Source: Chitinispirillum alkaliphilum (GTDB lineage Bacteria; Fibrobacterota; Chitinivibrionia; Chitinivibrionales; Chitinispirillaceae). Taken from it: a DNA stretch of 64,000 nucleotides. The notes beneath the pieces are model-generated. The model had not been told where the DNA came from, made no database searches, and saw nothing but the letters and a program-made list of their open reading frames with translations. Below, one piece after another: positions 21,572 through 27,989 of the stretch. The position numbers were made by a program, and so were the translations under genes. The DNA lies in NCBI GenBank assembly GCA_001045525.1, contig LDWW01000001.1, forward strand, positions 124,001 to 188,000. The letters are read 5' to 3'. Position 1 is the first letter of the stretch; every line of letters starts with the position of its first letter.

Positions 21572-21762
21572 CCCGTTATGGTTTCTTTCTCTCATCTCTA
21601 TTACGGATGGTTTGAATGTTCATGGGAATTCATTGCTGATTCTGATCCTACAAGTTGTGATCTAATTGCGTGTGAAATATTGTTTCAAAAAAAGTGGACC
21701 TGTTATGTAGCGGTTTGTGTTAACCGGGGCGTCTACTAAAAAGGAAAAGGAAGGAACCAGAT

Positions 21763-22272
21763 TTGTCGGCGAAATCATCAGATGAATTGCGCGATCTATA
21801 CAAACGTTACGCATCGGTTGTGCATTCCCGTTGTGTGTCGATTCTCAAGTCCGAGGATGATGCATGGGATGCAACACAGGAGGTGTTTATAAAGCTGAAC
21901 AGAGCTCTGCCTTCAATTCGCAATAAAAATGCGATCTTTTACTGGCTCATGAGCGCAAGCACCAACCATTGCATATCGGTTTTGCGCAGAAAAAAAACTG
22001 TCGAGTTTGATGAGGCTGTTCATCGCCCTGCCAAAGAGCCCGGGATGAGCGCCCAGGAGAAGAGACTTGTCATGAAAGAGATTTTGAAACACTATTTTAT
22101 GCCGTGGAATAAGAAAGTAAGAGAGGTACTGTTCTACACTTATATTGATGGCTATAAGCAGCAGGAAATTGCAAAGCTTACAGGTCTTGGAGAATCCACT
22201 ATAAGAAAGTATCTCACCGGATTTCGTCGTGCCTGCGGTACGGCTTCAGTCAAGCCAGAGGAGGTTATATGA
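21763..22272 (+). CDS. ECF-type RNA polymerase sigma factor
   Basis: The 169-residue protein has sigma region 2 with DAWDATQEVFIKLNRAL, which fits the core-binding and -10 recognition helix. Region 4 includes YIDGYKQQEIAKLTGLGEST, a helix-turn-helix that reads the -35. The start appears to be a TTG after a GGAAGGA ribosome site. The stop overlaps the start of the anti-sigma gene by 4 bases (ATGA), so the two are translated together. It should direct the polymerase to envelope-related promoters when released by the anti-sigma. I could not define its promoter motif in the window. Confidence 0.92.
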   Translation: MSAKSSDELRDLYKRYASVVHSRCVSILKSEDDAWDATQEVFIKLNRALPSIRNKNAIFYWLMSASTNHCISVLRRKKTVEFDEAVHRPAKEPGMSAQEKRLVMKEILKHYFMPWNKKVREVLFYTYIDGYKQQEIAKLTGLGESTIRKYLTGFRRACGTASVKPEEVI

Positions 22273-23063
22273 GTTGGGAACCAGGACGGCTTACACTTCA
22301 GAAATTCTTTACCGGGGAACTTCGGGGTGAGGAGGTTGAAAAAATAAAATCCCATATTGAGGGCTGCTCACACTGCAGCAGTTATATCGATGAGCTGGAG
22401 GCTGAGCAGAAACGGTTTTTAAATCTGCACCCCTTTGAGCAGTTGGAGCCCAAAAGGTCAGAAACCAAAAGTCGGTTTTCAATTCCGGACCTGTTTGCCG
22501 CAAAGGGACATCCCTTGTATGCCTTAAGTGCAATCTTGCTCTTAACTCTTGTCTCCATACCACTTTTAATCCTAACTATGGGCGGAAATGATGAGGAAAT
22601 GTTCAGGTACAGGGGCTCATCACAGCTTCAGTTCTTCTATGACAGAGCGGGTGTAATAAGCCGGGGAAGCCTCTCTCAGGAGTTTATGGCAGGTGACAGG
22701 ATTCAGATTCTGTATGAATACTCCGGTTTTTCTCATGTTTCACTGTTTAGTATAGATAATCTGGGAAACATATATTTCTATCAGCCGGATCAGGGGGACT
22801 CCTATCCTTCTGTCCCTGCTGATACCGGTAACCACAACTATTTCCCCTCAAGCATTATCCTTGATGATAAAGGCAGGGGAGAGCTGATCGTGCTGCTTCA
22901 CTCAAACAGAATGGTAAAAACAGAAGAGTTACGTTCGTGGATAAAGGGGCATTCCGGGTATGTCAAAGCTGATCTTTCTCTTTTGGAGAGAGAACTGAAA
23001 AACAATCCATTGTTTGGACAGGGAGCTGTCTATACGATGTTAATAAATAAGCAGGAAATGTAA
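22269..23063 (+). CDS. Zinc-finger anti-sigma factor with periplasmic DUF4384-like domain
   Basis: This 264-residue protein starts inside the sigma factor's stop. Its cytoplasmic part carries the HxxxCxxC zinc anti-sigma signature (His29, Cys33, Cys36), and one membrane helix lies near 84-104. The outer part includes SLSQEFMAGDRIQI and HVSLFSIDNLGNIYFYQP. This resembles DUF4384, a domain that, to my knowledge, often accompanies caspase-like proteases. The design suggests the outer domain senses an envelope condition and the inner part holds the sigma factor. The DUF4384 match is by eye. The caspase-like gene starts two bases after its stop. Confidence 0.85.
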   Translation: MSWEPGRLTLQKFFTGELRGEEVEKIKSHIEGCSHCSSYIDELEAEQKRFLNLHPFEQLEPKRSETKSRFSIPDLFAAKGHPLYALSAILLLTLVSIPLLILTMGGNDEEMFRYRGSSQLQFFYDRAGVISRGSLSQEFMAGDRIQILYEYSGFSHVSLFSIDNLGNIYFYQPDQGDSYPSVPADTGNHNYFPSSIILDDKGRGELIVLLHSNRMVKTEELRSWIKGHSGYVKADLSLLERELKNNPLFGQGAVYTMLINKQEM

Positions 23064-23064
23064 C

Positions 23065-24570
23065 ATGAAGAGATTGACTCTTTTGTTAGTGCTTCTGGGC
23101 CTTTTCTCATTGTCCTGGGCAAATCAGAGACACGCCCTTTTGATAGGGGCCAATAATGGAGGAGAGGGGCTTGACATACTGAGGTATGCGGAATCCGATG
23201 CTCTCAGATTTGCAAATGTTCTACGGGGGCCGGGAGAATTTTCCAAAGAGAATGTTTTTACACTTCTCTCACCCGACAGTGCAGAGGTGTTTGTTGCTCT
23301 TCAAGAGATCACAAACCATATAGAACAGGGAAATGGAAATTCTCTTTTCCTGTTTTACTATTCCGGACACTCTGATGGAGAGTATTTGCTTTTGGGTGAT
23401 CAAAGATATTCCCTCAGGGAGATAAAAACTTTCCTGGATTCATCAAAAGCAGATATCAGGATTGCAGTGATTGATGCCTGCTACAGTGGTGCAGTGATTG
23501 CGTTCAGGGGAGGCCGGCGGGGTGAACCATTTTTCATGAGCAGCCAGGAAAAGGTGAGAGGGCAGGTTATCATTTCATCTTCTGCTGCGCATCAAAGGGC
23601 GCAGGAATCGGATGCTCTTGGAGGTGGCATATTCACACACCATTGGATCAACGGGTTGAGAGGCAGTGCCGACATGGATGGGGACAGGTATGTAACTTTA
23701 AACGAGGCGTATCGCTATGCTTATCTAAAGACAATAGAATCTTCTGCCCTCACAGGAGGTGGGATACAGCACCCCTCCTATCATTTTAATATTCAGGGAG
23801 AAGGCGAGATTCGTCTGACTAACCTTAATCGTACAAATCTGAGTGGCGTACTTTTCGACCAAAGTTGTGAGGGCGCATTCTTGGTTCTAAGCCCCACTTT
23901 TACCAATGTATATGCTGATTTCACCAAACAGGGAGGAGTCCAAAACTTCATCTCTCTGGCTCCTGGTGAGTACAGTGCGATCAACGCAAGGGGAAGTGAT
24001 GTTTTTATACGGAATTTCACTGTGGGTGAGAGTGAAACGGTACTTTTAACCAATGCTATGCTGAGAAGCAGGCCTCTGGTCGATGTCACGAGAGTGAGAG
24101 GCCCTGATAAGGCTGAAGGGCCACTTTCCACCCCGCAGGAAACAGAGGGGCTGTTTCTGCATAGATGGGGATTAGGGACAGGGGCTGCATCCGGTTCAGG
24201 AGTAAGAGGTGGTGCTGATATGGTGATTACGGGATCTGGCTCTTACCGTCTTGAGGAAGACAGACGAATTTTTTATGATCTGCATCTTTTGCCATTTTCC
24301 AAATCCGCAGGTTTTAATATGGGCGTGAATGTATATAAACCTGTATATGATTTTCACCTCTATGCTGGTGGAGGCCCGGGGGTGTGGTATCTCGATTCCC
24401 ATTCCCGCAGTGTGACACTGGCTATGAGGGGGCACTTTGGGTTTAGCAGGGAATTAAACCAAACCCTGGAGATTCAGGGTCAAATTCCACTGACTATACT
24501 TTTTTCCAGAGGAAGAGAGCTTAAGAGCGGCATAGAGATCAGATTTCTTTTTACCGGGAAATCATTTTAA
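23065..24570 (+). CDS. Secreted caspase-like protease (C14) with barrel-like C-terminus
   Basis: This 501-residue protein has a signal peptide ending near SLSWA (residue 19). A caspase/C14 domain (about 20-245) follows, with HALLIGANNG, YYSGHSDG carrying catalytic His102 and IDACYSGA carrying catalytic Cys139. A middle region (about 255-345) looks like beta-sandwich. Residues about 365-501 show alternating strands with Gly-rich turns (YAGGGPGVWYL, LKSGIEIRFLF) and end in Phe, as outer-membrane barrels do. It is therefore probably exported and perhaps anchored in the outer membrane. Substrates are unknown. Both dyad residues are intact, so it may be an active cysteine peptidase of Asp or Arg/Lys preference. 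Confidence 0.85.
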   Translation: MKRLTLLLVLLGLFSLSWANQRHALLIGANNGGEGLDILRYAESDALRFANVLRGPGEFSKENVFTLLSPDSAEVFVALQEITNHIEQGNGNSLFLFYYSGHSDGEYLLLGDQRYSLREIKTFLDSSKADIRIAVIDACYSGAVIAFRGGRRGEPFFMSSQEKVRGQVIISSSAAHQRAQESDALGGGIFTHHWINGLRGSADMDGDRYVTLNEAYRYAYLKTIESSALTGGGIQHPSYHFNIQGEGEIRLTNLNRTNLSGVLFDQSCEGAFLVLSPTFTNVYADFTKQGGVQNFISLAPGEYSAINARGSDVFIRNFTVGESETVLLTNAMLRSRPLVDVTRVRGPDKAEGPLSTPQETEGLFLHRWGLGTGAASGSGVRGGADMVITGSGSYRLEEDRRIFYDLHLLPFSKSAGFNMGVNVYKPVYDFHLYAGGGPGVWYLDSHSRSVTLAMRGHFGFSRELNQTLEIQGQIPLTILFSRGRELKSGIEIRFLFTGKSF

Positions 24571-24668: not shown

Positions 24669-25223
24669 ATGAAAAACGTTCTGTTTTTGGCTTTAGTGTT
24701 GGGACTTACAGTTGGCGCGGTCGAGCCTCAGGCCCGTGAGGGAAGAAAGACAACTCCGCTGAAAATCTATAGTGGTGGTATAGGTGCGGGTGCTATGCTT
24801 GATCTGGATTCAGAGGCGGATGCATTTTCCGGGCAGTTGTTCAGGTTATCCTTCGTTAATATGTGGCAGTTCCGTGAGCACGTGGCACTTTTTGCCGATG
24901 TGAACTGGTTTGGACCAGGCAGAAATTTCGGTGCCGATGCAGGATTTGATTTCCTTCTGTCCAGTTCCTCTCTCAAACCTTTCCTGGGGTTTGGGATAGG
25001 TGCACATCACTTTGAAAGTGACGAAGGAAGTTTCAGTACTGATTTTGGTCCATCTGCCACTCTTCATATAGGCTTTTTACTTGATATCACAGAAACCGTG
25101 CAGGTGAGAATGCGCCTGCCCTATTATGTCGTACTCAATGAAGCGAATAATCATGGTGCCGGGCTCGATATCGCAGTTATGTTTACCAGCCCTTTGAGCA
25201 GAGTGAGAAGAATTCACTACTGA
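24669..25223 (+). CDS. Small outer-membrane beta-barrel protein
   Basis: This 184-residue protein has a signal peptide (about 1-22, FLALVLGLTVGAVEPQA). Short alternating strands follow with Gly-rich turns, such as GGIGAGAMLDLDSEAD and PFLGFGIGAHHFES. The pattern fits an 8-stranded outer-membrane barrel of the OmpA/OmpW/Opacity type. It resembles the C-terminal part of the upstream caspase-like protein in style, not clearly in sequence. An AAAAGGAGAGG ribosome site precedes the ATG. The 98-base gap to the caspase gene contains no terminator. Confidence 0.72.
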   Translation: MKNVLFLALVLGLTVGAVEPQAREGRKTTPLKIYSGGIGAGAMLDLDSEADAFSGQLFRLSFVNMWQFREHVALFADVNWFGPGRNFGADAGFDFLLSSSSLKPFLGFGIGAHHFESDEGSFSTDFGPSATLHIGFLLDITETVQVRMRLPYYVVLNEANNHGAGLDIAVMFTSPLSRVRRIHY

Positions 25224-25264: not shown

Positions 25265-25822
25265 ATGAAAAAGATGGCTTTGGTCTCATTGTCTGTACTA
25301 TCTTCACTCGCCTTTACAACCCTTGCCGGAGAGGATAGGGCCACTACAGAAAACAAAAATGTCACTATTATTCAGGGGCGCTCAACCGCTGACGGCAGCT
25401 CTGAAATAACAGAGCGTATCCTTGAGGAGTGCATCATTGCCCTTCCCGGTGTTGGGGATCTTGATGCTCAGGTTGATGCGGAAACGGAATTTCTAAGAGA
25501 GATTAACGGCGAAACCGGGAAAAATGAGTTTGTCACTGTGTATTCTGCTTCAATTGATATCAATTATATGCTTCATCAGAAAGTGCTCATAATTGTTACA
25601 AGCAGTACCGTTCAGGCACAGGAGCCGGTTATGAAGGTGGTGGAAAGAAATCTGAGACAAACTGTGAGGTTTGAGTCCAATCCTGCAAACGGGGATATTT
25701 TTGCCGGAAGATCGAACAGACAGCATTATTTTAGCACTCGGGAGGGCGCGGTCAATGATGCTAAAACAAGAGCCGCTGCCTGGATAAAACAACAAAGTGC
25801 AGTCGTGTGTGCAGAAAAGTAG
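25265..25822 (+). CDS. Exported protein of unknown function
   Basis: This 185-residue protein has a clear signal peptide (VSLSVLSSLAFTTLAG) and no lipobox cysteine. The mature part is mixed alpha/beta, with two cysteines (in EECIIALPG and at the end, VVCAEK) that might pair. I recognise no family. It sits between a small barrel and the LpoB-like gene with AGGAGAATATT before the ATG, so it is likely part of the same envelope operon. A role alongside LpoB-type lipoproteins is guessed from position. Confidence 0.7.
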   Translation: MKKMALVSLSVLSSLAFTTLAGEDRATTENKNVTIIQGRSTADGSSEITERILEECIIALPGVGDLDAQVDAETEFLREINGETGKNEFVTVYSASIDINYMLHQKVLIIVTSSTVQAQEPVMKVVERNLRQTVRFESNPANGDIFAGRSNRQHYFSTREGAVNDAKTRAAAWIKQQSAVVCAEK

Positions 25823-25902
25823 ATTGTTGCTGTTAAAAACAGGTATTTTATATTTTTCTGCAGTGCGGGTTACAAAAGTTAAGCTATTATTAAGGAGGAT
25901 TT

Positions 25903-26496
25903 ATGCGCGGGTTGAAATCAGTTGTTTGTGTTATACTTCCGGTTTTCCTGTTGGGGTGTGCAACGAAAGTGTCACGTGTGGACACTGCTTCCACAATCGA
26001 TCTTAGTGGCAGATGGAACGATACCGATTCAAGGCTTGTGGCTGAGGAGATGATTGAGGATTGCTTGAATCAGCGCTGGCTGTATAGCTGGGAAGCCAGA
26101 AATCAACGTCCCACTGTGATTGTGGGTAATATTGTAAACAGAAGTCATGAGCATATAAACACACAAACATTTACCAGAAATATTGAACGGGCGCTTCTTA
26201 ACAGCGGACGGGTTAATTTTGTGGCTACAAGGGAAGATCGTGAGCAGCTTCGTGATGAGCGTCGTGATCAGGCTGAACACTCCTCTGTGCAGACGATGAA
26301 GCAAATGGGGGAGGAAACAGGTGCTGATCTGATGCTTATGGGCACCATAAATACCATCGTGGATCAGGAAGGAAGACGGGCTGTTATCTATTATCAGGTA
26401 AATATGGAACTGGTCGAAATAGAGTCCAACATGAAAGTATGGATCGGTGAAAAACAGATCAAAAAATATGTAGAACGTGCTAACACCAGATTCTGA
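25903..26496 (+). CDS. lpoB: LpoB-like penicillin-binding-protein activator lipoprotein
   Basis: The 197-residue protein ends its signal with the lipobox LLGC. The mature sequence has LSGRWNDTDSRLVAEEMI, PTVIVGNIVNRS, RNIERALLNSGRVNFV, and GADLMLMGTINTIVDQ. These match the LpoB family fold, related to the N-terminal domain of TolB and to CsgG. In gammaproteobacteria LpoB reaches through the wall from the outer membrane to switch on the PBP1B synthase. The next gene is a COG3014-like lipoprotein, a pairing I recall from other diderms. The ribosome site is AAGGAGG. Confidence 0.88.
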   Translation: MRGLKSVVCVILPVFLLGCATKVSRVDTASTIDLSGRWNDTDSRLVAEEMIEDCLNQRWLYSWEARNQRPTVIVGNIVNRSHEHINTQTFTRNIERALLNSGRVNFVATREDREQLRDERRDQAEHSSVQTMKQMGEETGADLMLMGTINTIVDQEGRRAVIYYQVNMELVEIESNMKVWIGEKQIKKYVERANTRF

Positions 26497-26531
26497 TTAA
26501 AACCTTTAAATGTGAGAATTGATAAAGGTCA

Positions 26532-27989
26532 ATGTATCGTATAACGCATCTATATGGTCTTTTAAGGATTATTGCTGCAACTGCGGCTGTGCTCATGTTC
26601 TCTTCATGTGCCGGACGCAGTCTGTTACGGCAGGATAAAATTTCCGATGCTGTGGCAGAGGGGGACTTTCTTACTGCCATATCGCTCATAAGGGAAAATG
26701 ATAACCTGTATGGCAGAAACAATGAGTTTCTGTACAATATGGACATAGGCGTGTTGTTTCATTATGCCGGTAAATTTGATTCCAGCAATACATATCTGAT
26801 GAGGGCCGCTGATGTCTATGATGAGTTGTTTGCACGTTCTGTTACCAATGAAGCTGCTGCGATTCTTGTCAATGATAACATTCGTCCATATAGAAGTAAA
26901 CCGTATGAAATTGTTCATCTGCATATGTTTGCCGCCCTGAATTTTATGGCTATGGGAAGGGTGGATGATGCGCTTGTGGAGACCCGCAGAATGCAGCTCC
27001 ATTTCAATGAATGGGAGCGCAGGGACAGAAGCGGTAACAGATATACCAATGATGGAATGTTTCACCTGATTTCATCAATTATTTATGAGCAGGCGGGGGA
27101 AATTGACAATTCCCTTATTTCTCTTTTCAAATCTGTGCAGGCTTACCAGAATGGGCCGGTACCCTTGCCCTCTGTCGTGAGAGATTATGCATATACTAAA
27201 CTTGTGACTTATGACAGGGCTGCCGATACTGCACGTTTGAATATCACTGCTCCCGAGGGGAATTCTGTTTGGGAACTCAACCCCAGGGGTTCAGAGATAG
27301 TGGTTGTAAGTTACGCCGGAAGGGGGCCGGTACTGCGGGAGACTGTATGGGCTGGCACTTACGTTAAAGACGGCTTACTGGTATTAAGGTACACTGATCC
27401 GAATGGAAATACTGAGGTGATTACAACACATGCACCTGCACTGCCTCAGTCTGAGTATGAGAAGGCAAATCAGGGGCAGCCTACCAGGTCCGGTACAACT
27501 TTCCGAATAAAAGTGGCTCTGCCGATGGTGAGTACAAGCACTTCACGTGTAGCTCATTTTACCGCTGACCCAGGCACAGGGAATGCAAAACGCTCTGTGG
27601 TGGTCAGCGATATAGATCTGCTGGCAAGGGATTATCACCAGGATAACTGGAATGCCACGCTGAGCAGAACTGTTGTAAGAGTCATACTACGCACCATTGC
27701 AGCAGAGAGAACAAAAGCCCAGATGCGCACGGATAATCCGGTTCTCAATCTTTTGCTGAATCTTGGTACCGATGTTGTTACCGATCAAATGGAGAGGGCG
27801 GATGTAAGGAACTGTTTTCTCTTGCCTCAAACTATTCACCTGACGCGCATACCTGTTGATACCGGTACCCATTCTGTTACTGTAAAGGCTTATGACCGAA
27901 ACGGCAATGTGATACGTTCAAAAAATATAGATGATATAACAGTGCGCAGAGGAGAGCGCAGGTTTGTTTTCAACCATTCTTTTTATTGA
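26532..27989 (+). CDS. COG3014-like lipoprotein
   Basis: This 485-residue lipoprotein has the lipobox FSSC. A helical, TPR-like half (about 35-220) includes LYNMDIGVLFHYAGKFDSSN and NFMAMGRVDDALVETRRM. The second half is mixed beta and includes NPRGSEIVVVSYAGRGP. The end carries TRIPVDTGTHSVTVKAYD. It fits the uncharacterised COG3014 lipoprotein group, which is found beside LpoB homologues. The start is an ATG 35 bases after the lpoB stop, and AAAGGTC precedes it. Likely an outer-membrane scaffold in cell-wall assembly; the exact role is unknown. Confidence 0.78.
   Translation: MYRITHLYGLLRIIAATAAVLMFSSCAGRSLLRQDKISDAVAEGDFLTAISLIRENDNLYGRNNEFLYNMDIGVLFHYAGKFDSSNTYLMRAADVYDELFARSVTNEAAAILVNDNIRPYRSKPYEIVHLHMFAALNFMAMGRVDDALVETRRMQLHFNEWERRDRSGNRYTNDGMFHLISSIIYEQAGEIDNSLISLFKSVQAYQNGPVPLPSVVRDYAYTKLVTYDRAADTARLNITAPEGNSVWELNPRGSEIVVVSYAGRGPVLRETVWAGTYVKDGLLVLRYTDPNGNTEVITTHAPALPQSEYEKANQGQPTRSGTTFRIKVALPMVSTSTSRVAHFTADPGTGNAKRSVVVSDIDLLARDYHQDNWNATLSRTVVRVILRTIAAERTKAQMRTDNPVLNLLLNLGTDVVTDQMERADVRNCFLLPQTIHLTRIPVDTGTHSVTVKAYDRNGNVIRSKNIDDITVRRGERRFVFNHSFY

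Follow-up and report, generated by a model that had tools for sequence, protein, structure and literature searches.

Bacterial relatives of caspases are common, and few of them have a known physiological substrate. The locus described here raises the question of what such a protease does when its gene directly follows those of a sigma factor and a membrane-bound anti-sigma factor. It lies in a stretch of 64,000 nucleotides from Chitinispirillum alkaliphilum, phylum Fibrobacterota (contig LDWW01000001.1, positions 124,001 to 188,000; hereafter the window), and consists of genes for an extracytoplasmic function (ECF) sigma factor, a zinc-motif anti-sigma factor and a caspase-family protease with a putative signal peptide (Table 1). 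The original prediction had suggested that the caspase could free the sigma factor by cutting the anti-sigma factor. We found that this module occurs in at least seven bacterial phyla. Because the protease contains two copies of a short candidate cutting motif and the sensor carries one copy of the same motif, we consider it probable that the trio works as a switch dedicated to envelope stress, in which the caspase would serve as site-1 protease by processing itself, leaving its membrane barrel and cutting the anti-sigma factor, with RseP completing the release.

Conservation of the gene trio

Caspase homologues were detected in 137 of the 168 genomes of the phylum. At 66 of 70 loci in the phylum, an anti-sigma gene lay directly upstream of the caspase gene with a median gap of -1 base; a sigma gene was also present at 63 of these caspase loci and was not seen at three more, and the remaining four had no anti-sigma gene. 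Outside the phylum, in records from Acidobacteria, Myxococcota, Gemmatimonadetes, Spirochaetes, Latescibacteria, Gammaproteobacteria, Eisenbacteria, FCPU426 and others, 37 of 41 caspases were accompanied by an anti-sigma gene and 33 by a sigma gene as well. A scan of genome contigs yielded 80 loci. The gene order of the trio is conserved far beyond chance.

Strong anti-sigma matches and caspases also co-occur genome by genome within the phylum, and the exceptions are few: one genome that is 68% complete (G006) has an anti-sigma factor without a caspase, and four genomes of the Fibrimonas group have a caspase without an anti-sigma factor. In other genomes of this group the sigma/anti-sigma pair and the caspase are both kept on different contigs, and the unlinked proteins still carry the motif discussed below (RIKG or RVKG in the tether, TRTKGG in the caspase). 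Two Latescibacteria loci each contain an additional caspase of this kind (L164, 8244-9968; L165, 8147-9922), for which an anti-sigma factor of its own was not detected. The Myxococcaceae caspase at locus L133 has an R-x-K-G-G loop, and no sigma or anti-sigma gene was recognised in the 5 kb upstream of it.

A motif shared by the anti-sigma factor and the caspase

What is new here is a motif, roughly T-R-x-K/R↓G (the arrow marking the proposed bond), at three predicted disordered segments across the two proteins: the juxtamembrane tether of the anti-sigma factor (site 1), the loop behind the catalytic Cys139 of the caspase (site 2) and the caspase linker in front of its C-terminal barrel (site 3). 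All three sites lie inside or at the edge of segments whose predicted local distance difference test score (pLDDT) is below 50. In all 96 non-identical anti-sigma/caspase pairs, K or R followed by G was present at both site 1 and site 2, and the Arg at P3 was found in 86 of the tethers and 82 of the loops. The pattern R.[KR]G occurred in 59 of 63 anti-sigma linkers, where shuffling within each linker would give 1.7. Tether length differs between phyla, and R-x-K-G keeps its place immediately in front of the folded domain. G116, together with D163, is invariant in two alignments of the anti-sigma factor, and R113 and K/R115 are among its best-conserved positions. The loop after Cys139 reads T-R-x-K-G-G in most members and A-F-R148↓G-G in the window. 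At site 3, K or R occupies P1 in 109 of 112 homologues, with a Thr four residues before the bond in 53; at loci L013 and L081, where the caspase stops after the linker and has no barrel, site 3 is missing too.

Controls came from outside the module. The loop motif was not found in other caspases (plasmids of several phyla; L185, L186); the plasmid-borne ones, which share 24-35% identity and in most cases have TIR genes as neighbours, served as controls only. The tether motif was likewise not found in DUF4384 domains of unrelated proteins or in generic zinc anti-sigma factors of the same genomes. These results bear on the explanation that R-x-K-G has a structural or membrane-surface role in each of the proteins and that the likeness is coincidental. 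The motif is indeed short, and the linked proteins share common ancestry, so that the counts are not independent; however, the motif shifts along with tether length, the K/R-G at sites 1 and 2 is universal among the pairs while missing from the controls, and site 3 vanishes where the barrel vanishes. We regard coincidence as very improbable.

The residues next to the bond add to this as supporting evidence only. P2 was aromatic in both tether and loop in 11 of the 96 pairs and in only one of the two in 6 (contingency table 79/1/5/11; Fisher p 6e-10), and this co-variation stems largely from one clade, the window's own, of which the aromatic P2 in tether and loop is a feature, with counter-examples in the g37 modules. 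The co-variation at P3 (p 0.04) was not relied on. In a divergent trio at locus L179, the caspase loop is DACHAYFLVQKRG and the anti-sigma factor is without R-x-K-G; this trio is possibly degenerate or of changed specificity.

Catalytic core and expected specificity of the caspase

The protease matched Peptidase_C14 at 1.9e-9 (38 bits against a cut-off of 21.4), and its His102/Cys139 dyad, which the original prediction had described as intact, was invariant in two alignments, one of 70 homologues and one of 72, which places it in the C14 caspase family. The predicted signal peptide also stood, as the N-terminus is signal-peptide-like (MKRLTLLLVLLGLFSLSWA). Its closest solved sequences are metacaspases, and the structure model aligned with Arabidopsis metacaspase 4 (AtMC4) over 203 residues (Z 20.1, root mean square deviation 2.8), with caspase-7 and MALT1 scoring within one Z unit of this value. 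NCBIfam caspase_w_EACC1 was considered as the family of the protein and set aside because the match was below cut-off. The structure model (mean pLDDT 88.9) starts with a signal helix, which is followed by the catalytic core; straight after Cys139 comes a disordered loop at 148-161 with pLDDT below 50, and a beta-rich domain, a linker and a barrel complete the model. Caspases and metacaspases activate through cutting their own loop.

Specificity can be approached through the S1 pocket. The S1 residues of TbMCA2 are Asp95, Ser156 and Asp211 (PMC4357240), and they correspond to D45, S100 and D137 of the window caspase, judged by alignments and by position relative to the catalytic residues; D45 and D137 are invariant in 72 homologues, so the acidic S1 pocket is retained. 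Characterised non-metazoan C14 enzymes all cut after Arg or Lys (PMC5756287). Arg/Lys specificity is thus to be expected of the window caspase from its acidic S1 pocket and its C14 class.

A predicted outer-membrane anchor

The last ~135 residues of the caspase are predicted to form an OmpA-like outer-membrane barrel. In the model, eight long strands close a barrel as in proteins of the OmpA/OmpX type, and the top Foldseek matches include OmpA, OprF and NspA (E 1e-6 to 1e-5); Pfam searches of the C-terminal parts returned weak OMP_b-brl matches, in two members only. The linker before the barrel (341-361) is predicted to be disordered. Outer-membrane barrels have a last strand with a terminal Phe, and many of the caspase homologues have a terminal strand ending in Phe, for example PGFYAGLTVGRF in Fibrobacter. 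The caspase had been placed in the same periplasm as the sensor; export fits this placement, but the model points to a barrel-anchored protein and not to a free periplasmic enzyme.

The anti-sigma factor and its outer domain

The anti-sigma factor consists of a zinc-finger N-terminal domain, one transmembrane (TM) helix at 83-104, a disordered tether at 106-115 and a DUF4384-like outer domain at about 117-263. In its AlphaFold2 model (mean pLDDT 86.7), pLDDT is below 50 at 106-115, and the residues from 120 onwards form a compact beta domain. The zinc residues His29, Cys33 and Cys36 are present as had been noted; the zf-HC2 profile (PF13490) matched the window protein at E 0.0016 (18.9 bits, below the 22.2-bit cut-off) and 25 of 63 orthologues, at best with 6e-8. 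The protein is predicted to bind and inhibit its cognate sigma factor. Fibrobacter-type anti-sigma factors (L026, L030, L052, L055 and others) have lost the His/Cys zinc ligands and kept the tether motif and the DUF4384-like domain.

The resemblance of the outer domain to DUF4384 holds through relatives and not for the window protein itself: 48 of 63 orthologues matched, at best with 7.7e-10, and in the genome scans those of genomes G027, G033, G021, G020, G022, G017 and G057 exceeded the Pfam gathering cut-off of 27 bits. The anti-sigma DUF4384 matches in these scans adjoin caspases. A DUF4384 search of the C. alkaliphilum genome found nothing. The fold offers no functional hint, because a search of the anti-sigma model against the PDB gave no match better than E 0.03. 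The original prediction withstood its three own tests, namely the DUF4384 profile in orthologues, the gene order in relatives and the dyad in orthologous caspases.

DUF4384 proteins also lie directly beside caspases of an unrelated type at L185 and L186, where no sigma factors are present, which constitutes an independent DUF4384-caspase association. It favours the explanation that the outer domain acts in docking or inhibition, through which the anti-sigma factor would bind, restrain or report on the caspase without being cut, and the compact, well-predicted outer fold would suit such a role. We nevertheless hold this to be quite unlikely, since apart from D163 the strongest conservation is in the disordered tether and not on the domain surface.

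Proposed mechanism and competing explanations

The course of events that we infer would begin with a caspase that is exported and anchored in the outer membrane through its barrel as a zymogen. A signal, for which failed barrel insertion or outer-membrane damage would be the natural guess, would lead the caspase to cut itself, first in its own loop at R148↓G149, by which it would become active, and then in its own linker at R345↓G346, by which it would leave the barrel. The freed protease would cross the periplasm and cut the anti-sigma tether at R115↓G116, and RseP, which is encoded in the genome (E 9e-102), would then cut the remaining TM stub and release the sigma factor. The sigma factor would probably activate its own operon from the putative promoter at 21709-21735. 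The suggestion that the caspase cuts the anti-sigma factor is strengthened because the R-x-K/R↓G motif is common to the tether and the caspase's own loop, but the likely site is the juxtamembrane tether and not the folded outer domain, where the cut had been placed. More tentatively, and with somewhat less than an even chance in our estimate, the caspase may be both sensor and messenger: its barrel would report on barrel assembly or membrane integrity, self-cutting at R345↓G346 would set the protease free, and the cut in the anti-sigma factor would join both membranes, with the three copies of the motif marking this path.

Several observations weigh against the proposal that the caspase is the site-1 protease. 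No anti-sigma gene adjoins the L133 caspase or the additional caspases at L164 and L165, despite upstream DNA being present, and the window's anti-sigma factor gave no match to DUF4384 (PF14326) even at E 10. The P4-P2 residues differ between the sites; the g37 modules break the P2 coupling, with an aromatic P2 in the caspase and a non-aromatic P2 in the anti-sigma factor; and the pairs are not independent, so that this coupling may rest on few events, because the linked caspases form one clade. The barrel prediction rests on one member, and a C-terminal Phe is found in only 68 of 147 caspases, whose C-terminal lengths and ends vary. Finally, three trypsin-like (Trypsin_2) candidates resembling DegP/DegS are encoded in the genome.

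These last candidates lend themselves to a different explanation, in which the caspase is the output: a DegS-type site-1 protease and RseP would free the sigma factor, and the caspase would be a sigma-controlled effector for the clearance of damaged outer-membrane proteins or for cell killing. Besides the presence of three Trypsin_2 proteins and RseP, it is favoured by the promoter-like site 5' of the operon and by the fact that sigma operons often contain their own targets. However, it leaves unexplained both the R-x-K/R↓G common to the anti-sigma tether and the two caspase segments and the near-perfect co-occurrence even when the genes are unlinked, and we judge it unlikely.

Relation to known systems

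Anti-sigma proteolysis is already known, and what is unusual here is the protease and the topology. The closest parallel to the proposed switch in overall design is the sigma-E/RseA/DegS/RseP pathway of E. coli, with its ECF sigma factor, single-pass anti-sigma factor with a periplasmic domain, juxtamembrane site-1 cut (here proposed) and RseP; here, however, a cysteine caspase that is encoded in the operon and bears a predicted outer-membrane barrel is proposed to make the site-1 cut, and the outer domain of the anti-sigma factor is DUF4384-like, unlike that of RseA. Orthocaspases and metacaspases (AtMC4, TbMCA2, MaOC1) share the C14 fold, the His-Cys dyad, the expected Arg/Lys at P1 and autoprocessing (proposed here), and the window caspase differs from them in its export, its barrel fusion and its sigma/anti-sigma operon.

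Caspase-driven release of a sigma factor, which had been put forward as new, has precedents. In type III-E CRISPR systems, Csx29 (TPR-CHAT) cuts Csx30 and thereby relieves the ECF-like CASP-sigma (PMC10028731), which likewise combines a caspase-type protease with a substrate that inhibits an ECF-like sigma factor (here proposed). The Csx29 system is cytoplasmic and RNA-activated, whereas here the protease is exported and predicted to be anchored by a barrel, and the inhibitor resides in the inner membrane; the window protease is not a cytoplasmic Cas7-11-dependent CHAT protease, as a signal-peptide-like N-terminus and a C-terminal barrel replace TPR-CHAT. Sigma-70 genes were reported in metacaspase operons of Myxococcus xanthus, Anaeromyxobacter, Haliangium, Sorangium, Ralstonia and Fibrobacter (Asplund-Samuelsson et al. 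2012; PMC3501461). These are operons of the same kind, and members from Fibrobacter and myxobacteria were found here too; in the passages of that paper considered here, cell death is discussed and the sigma-metacaspase link is given without a mechanism, and the anti-sigma factor, DUF4384, the barrel and the cleavage motif are not mentioned. ECF54 sigma genes also adjoin caspase-type proteases, in a CHAT/subtilase/carboxypeptidase gene context, but their control is proposed to work without an anti-sigma factor (PMC8999054). Our literature searches, which took in few subscription papers, turned up no account of a caspase, whether exported or barrel-anchored, that acts on an anti-sigma factor, and this is not proof of absence.

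The module offers a specific candidate caspase substrate, with the bond named, across at least seven phyla. If the proposal is true, caspases would join the proteases that start anti-sigma breakdown, an outer-membrane protein would signal inwards through the release of its own protease domain, and a bacterial caspase would have a non-lethal job, a point of relevance to the question whether the main role of these proteins in bacteria is in cell death. The proposal is testable in cultured species, because Myxococcus xanthus and Fibrobacter have been reported with such operons (PMC3501461).

Locus, promoter-like site and neighbouring genes

The coordinates of the sigma and anti-sigma genes and their 4-base overlap agree with the original prediction, and the caspase gene, which had been placed two bases later, is separated from the anti-sigma stop by a single base. 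The sigma protein matched Sigma70_r2 (PF04542, 6e-10), Sigma70_r4_2 (PF08281, 1e-7) and the ECF family TIGR02937 (1e-19), and it contains sigma regions 2 and 4 only, as in the ECF class.

Table 1 Features of the locus (window coordinates)
Feature	Position	Strand	Evidence
Putative ECF-type promoter, AGCG-N17-CGTCTA	21709..21735	+	27 bases 5' of sigma start
ECF sigma factor, 169 aa, TTG start	21763..22272	+	open reading frame (ORF) calls, family searches
Membrane anti-sigma factor, 264 aa	22269..23063	+	ORF calls, family searches, AlphaFold2 model
Zinc motif H29-x3-C33-x2-C36	22353..22376	+	sequence, alignment
Transmembrane helix, residues 83-104	22515..22580	+	AlphaFold2 model; hydropathy of homologues
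Site 1, R113-Y-R115↓G116, juxtamembrane tether, proposed caspase cut	22605..22616	+	alignment, shuffling, pLDDT
Secreted caspase-family protease, 501 aa, with predicted C-terminal barrel	23065..24570	+	ORF, Pfam, model
Catalytic His102	23368..23370	+	invariant
Catalytic Cys139	23479..23481	+	invariant
Site 2, A146-F-R148↓G149(-G150), loop after Cys139, proposed autoprocessing site	23500..23511	+	alignment, pLDDT
Beta-rich middle domain, residues ~236-336	23770..24072	+	structure model
Site 3, T342-R-V-R345↓G346, linker, proposed self-release site	24088..24102	+	homologue comparison
Predicted 8-stranded beta-barrel, residues 367-497	24163..24555	+	model; Foldseek
Separate barrel-like outer-membrane protein, homologous to caspase barrel	24669..25223	+	family searches, neighbour comparison

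The exact promoter-like pattern occurs once in the 4.43 Mb genome, in front of the sigma operon itself; it gave a single match in the window, where about 1.2 would be expected with one mismatch. In 8 of 12 relatives, the region before the sigma gene contained the related pair GAGC-N14..18-CGTC, whereas the best word pair after shuffling reached 4-5. A search of the genome with the exact pattern for a wider regulon gave nothing beyond the operon's own site. The main target of the sigma factor may be its own operon.

In most of the window's family, the separate barrel-like protein is the downstream neighbour of the caspase, and a tetratricopeptide repeat (TPR) protein is kept on the upstream flank. 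A further kept block downstream (25265-27989) encodes an unknown secreted protein, an LpoB-like lipoprotein (PF13036, 5e-43) and a 485-aa protein (26532 gene), which suggests a link of the module to the cell wall or envelope. Taken together, the kept flanking genes and the promoter-like site before the sigma gene suggest an envelope role with self-induction. The genome of C. alkaliphilum (160 contigs) contains one full copy of the caspase, and a second Peptidase_C14 match lies at locus L091 (G000:C73:1889-2272).

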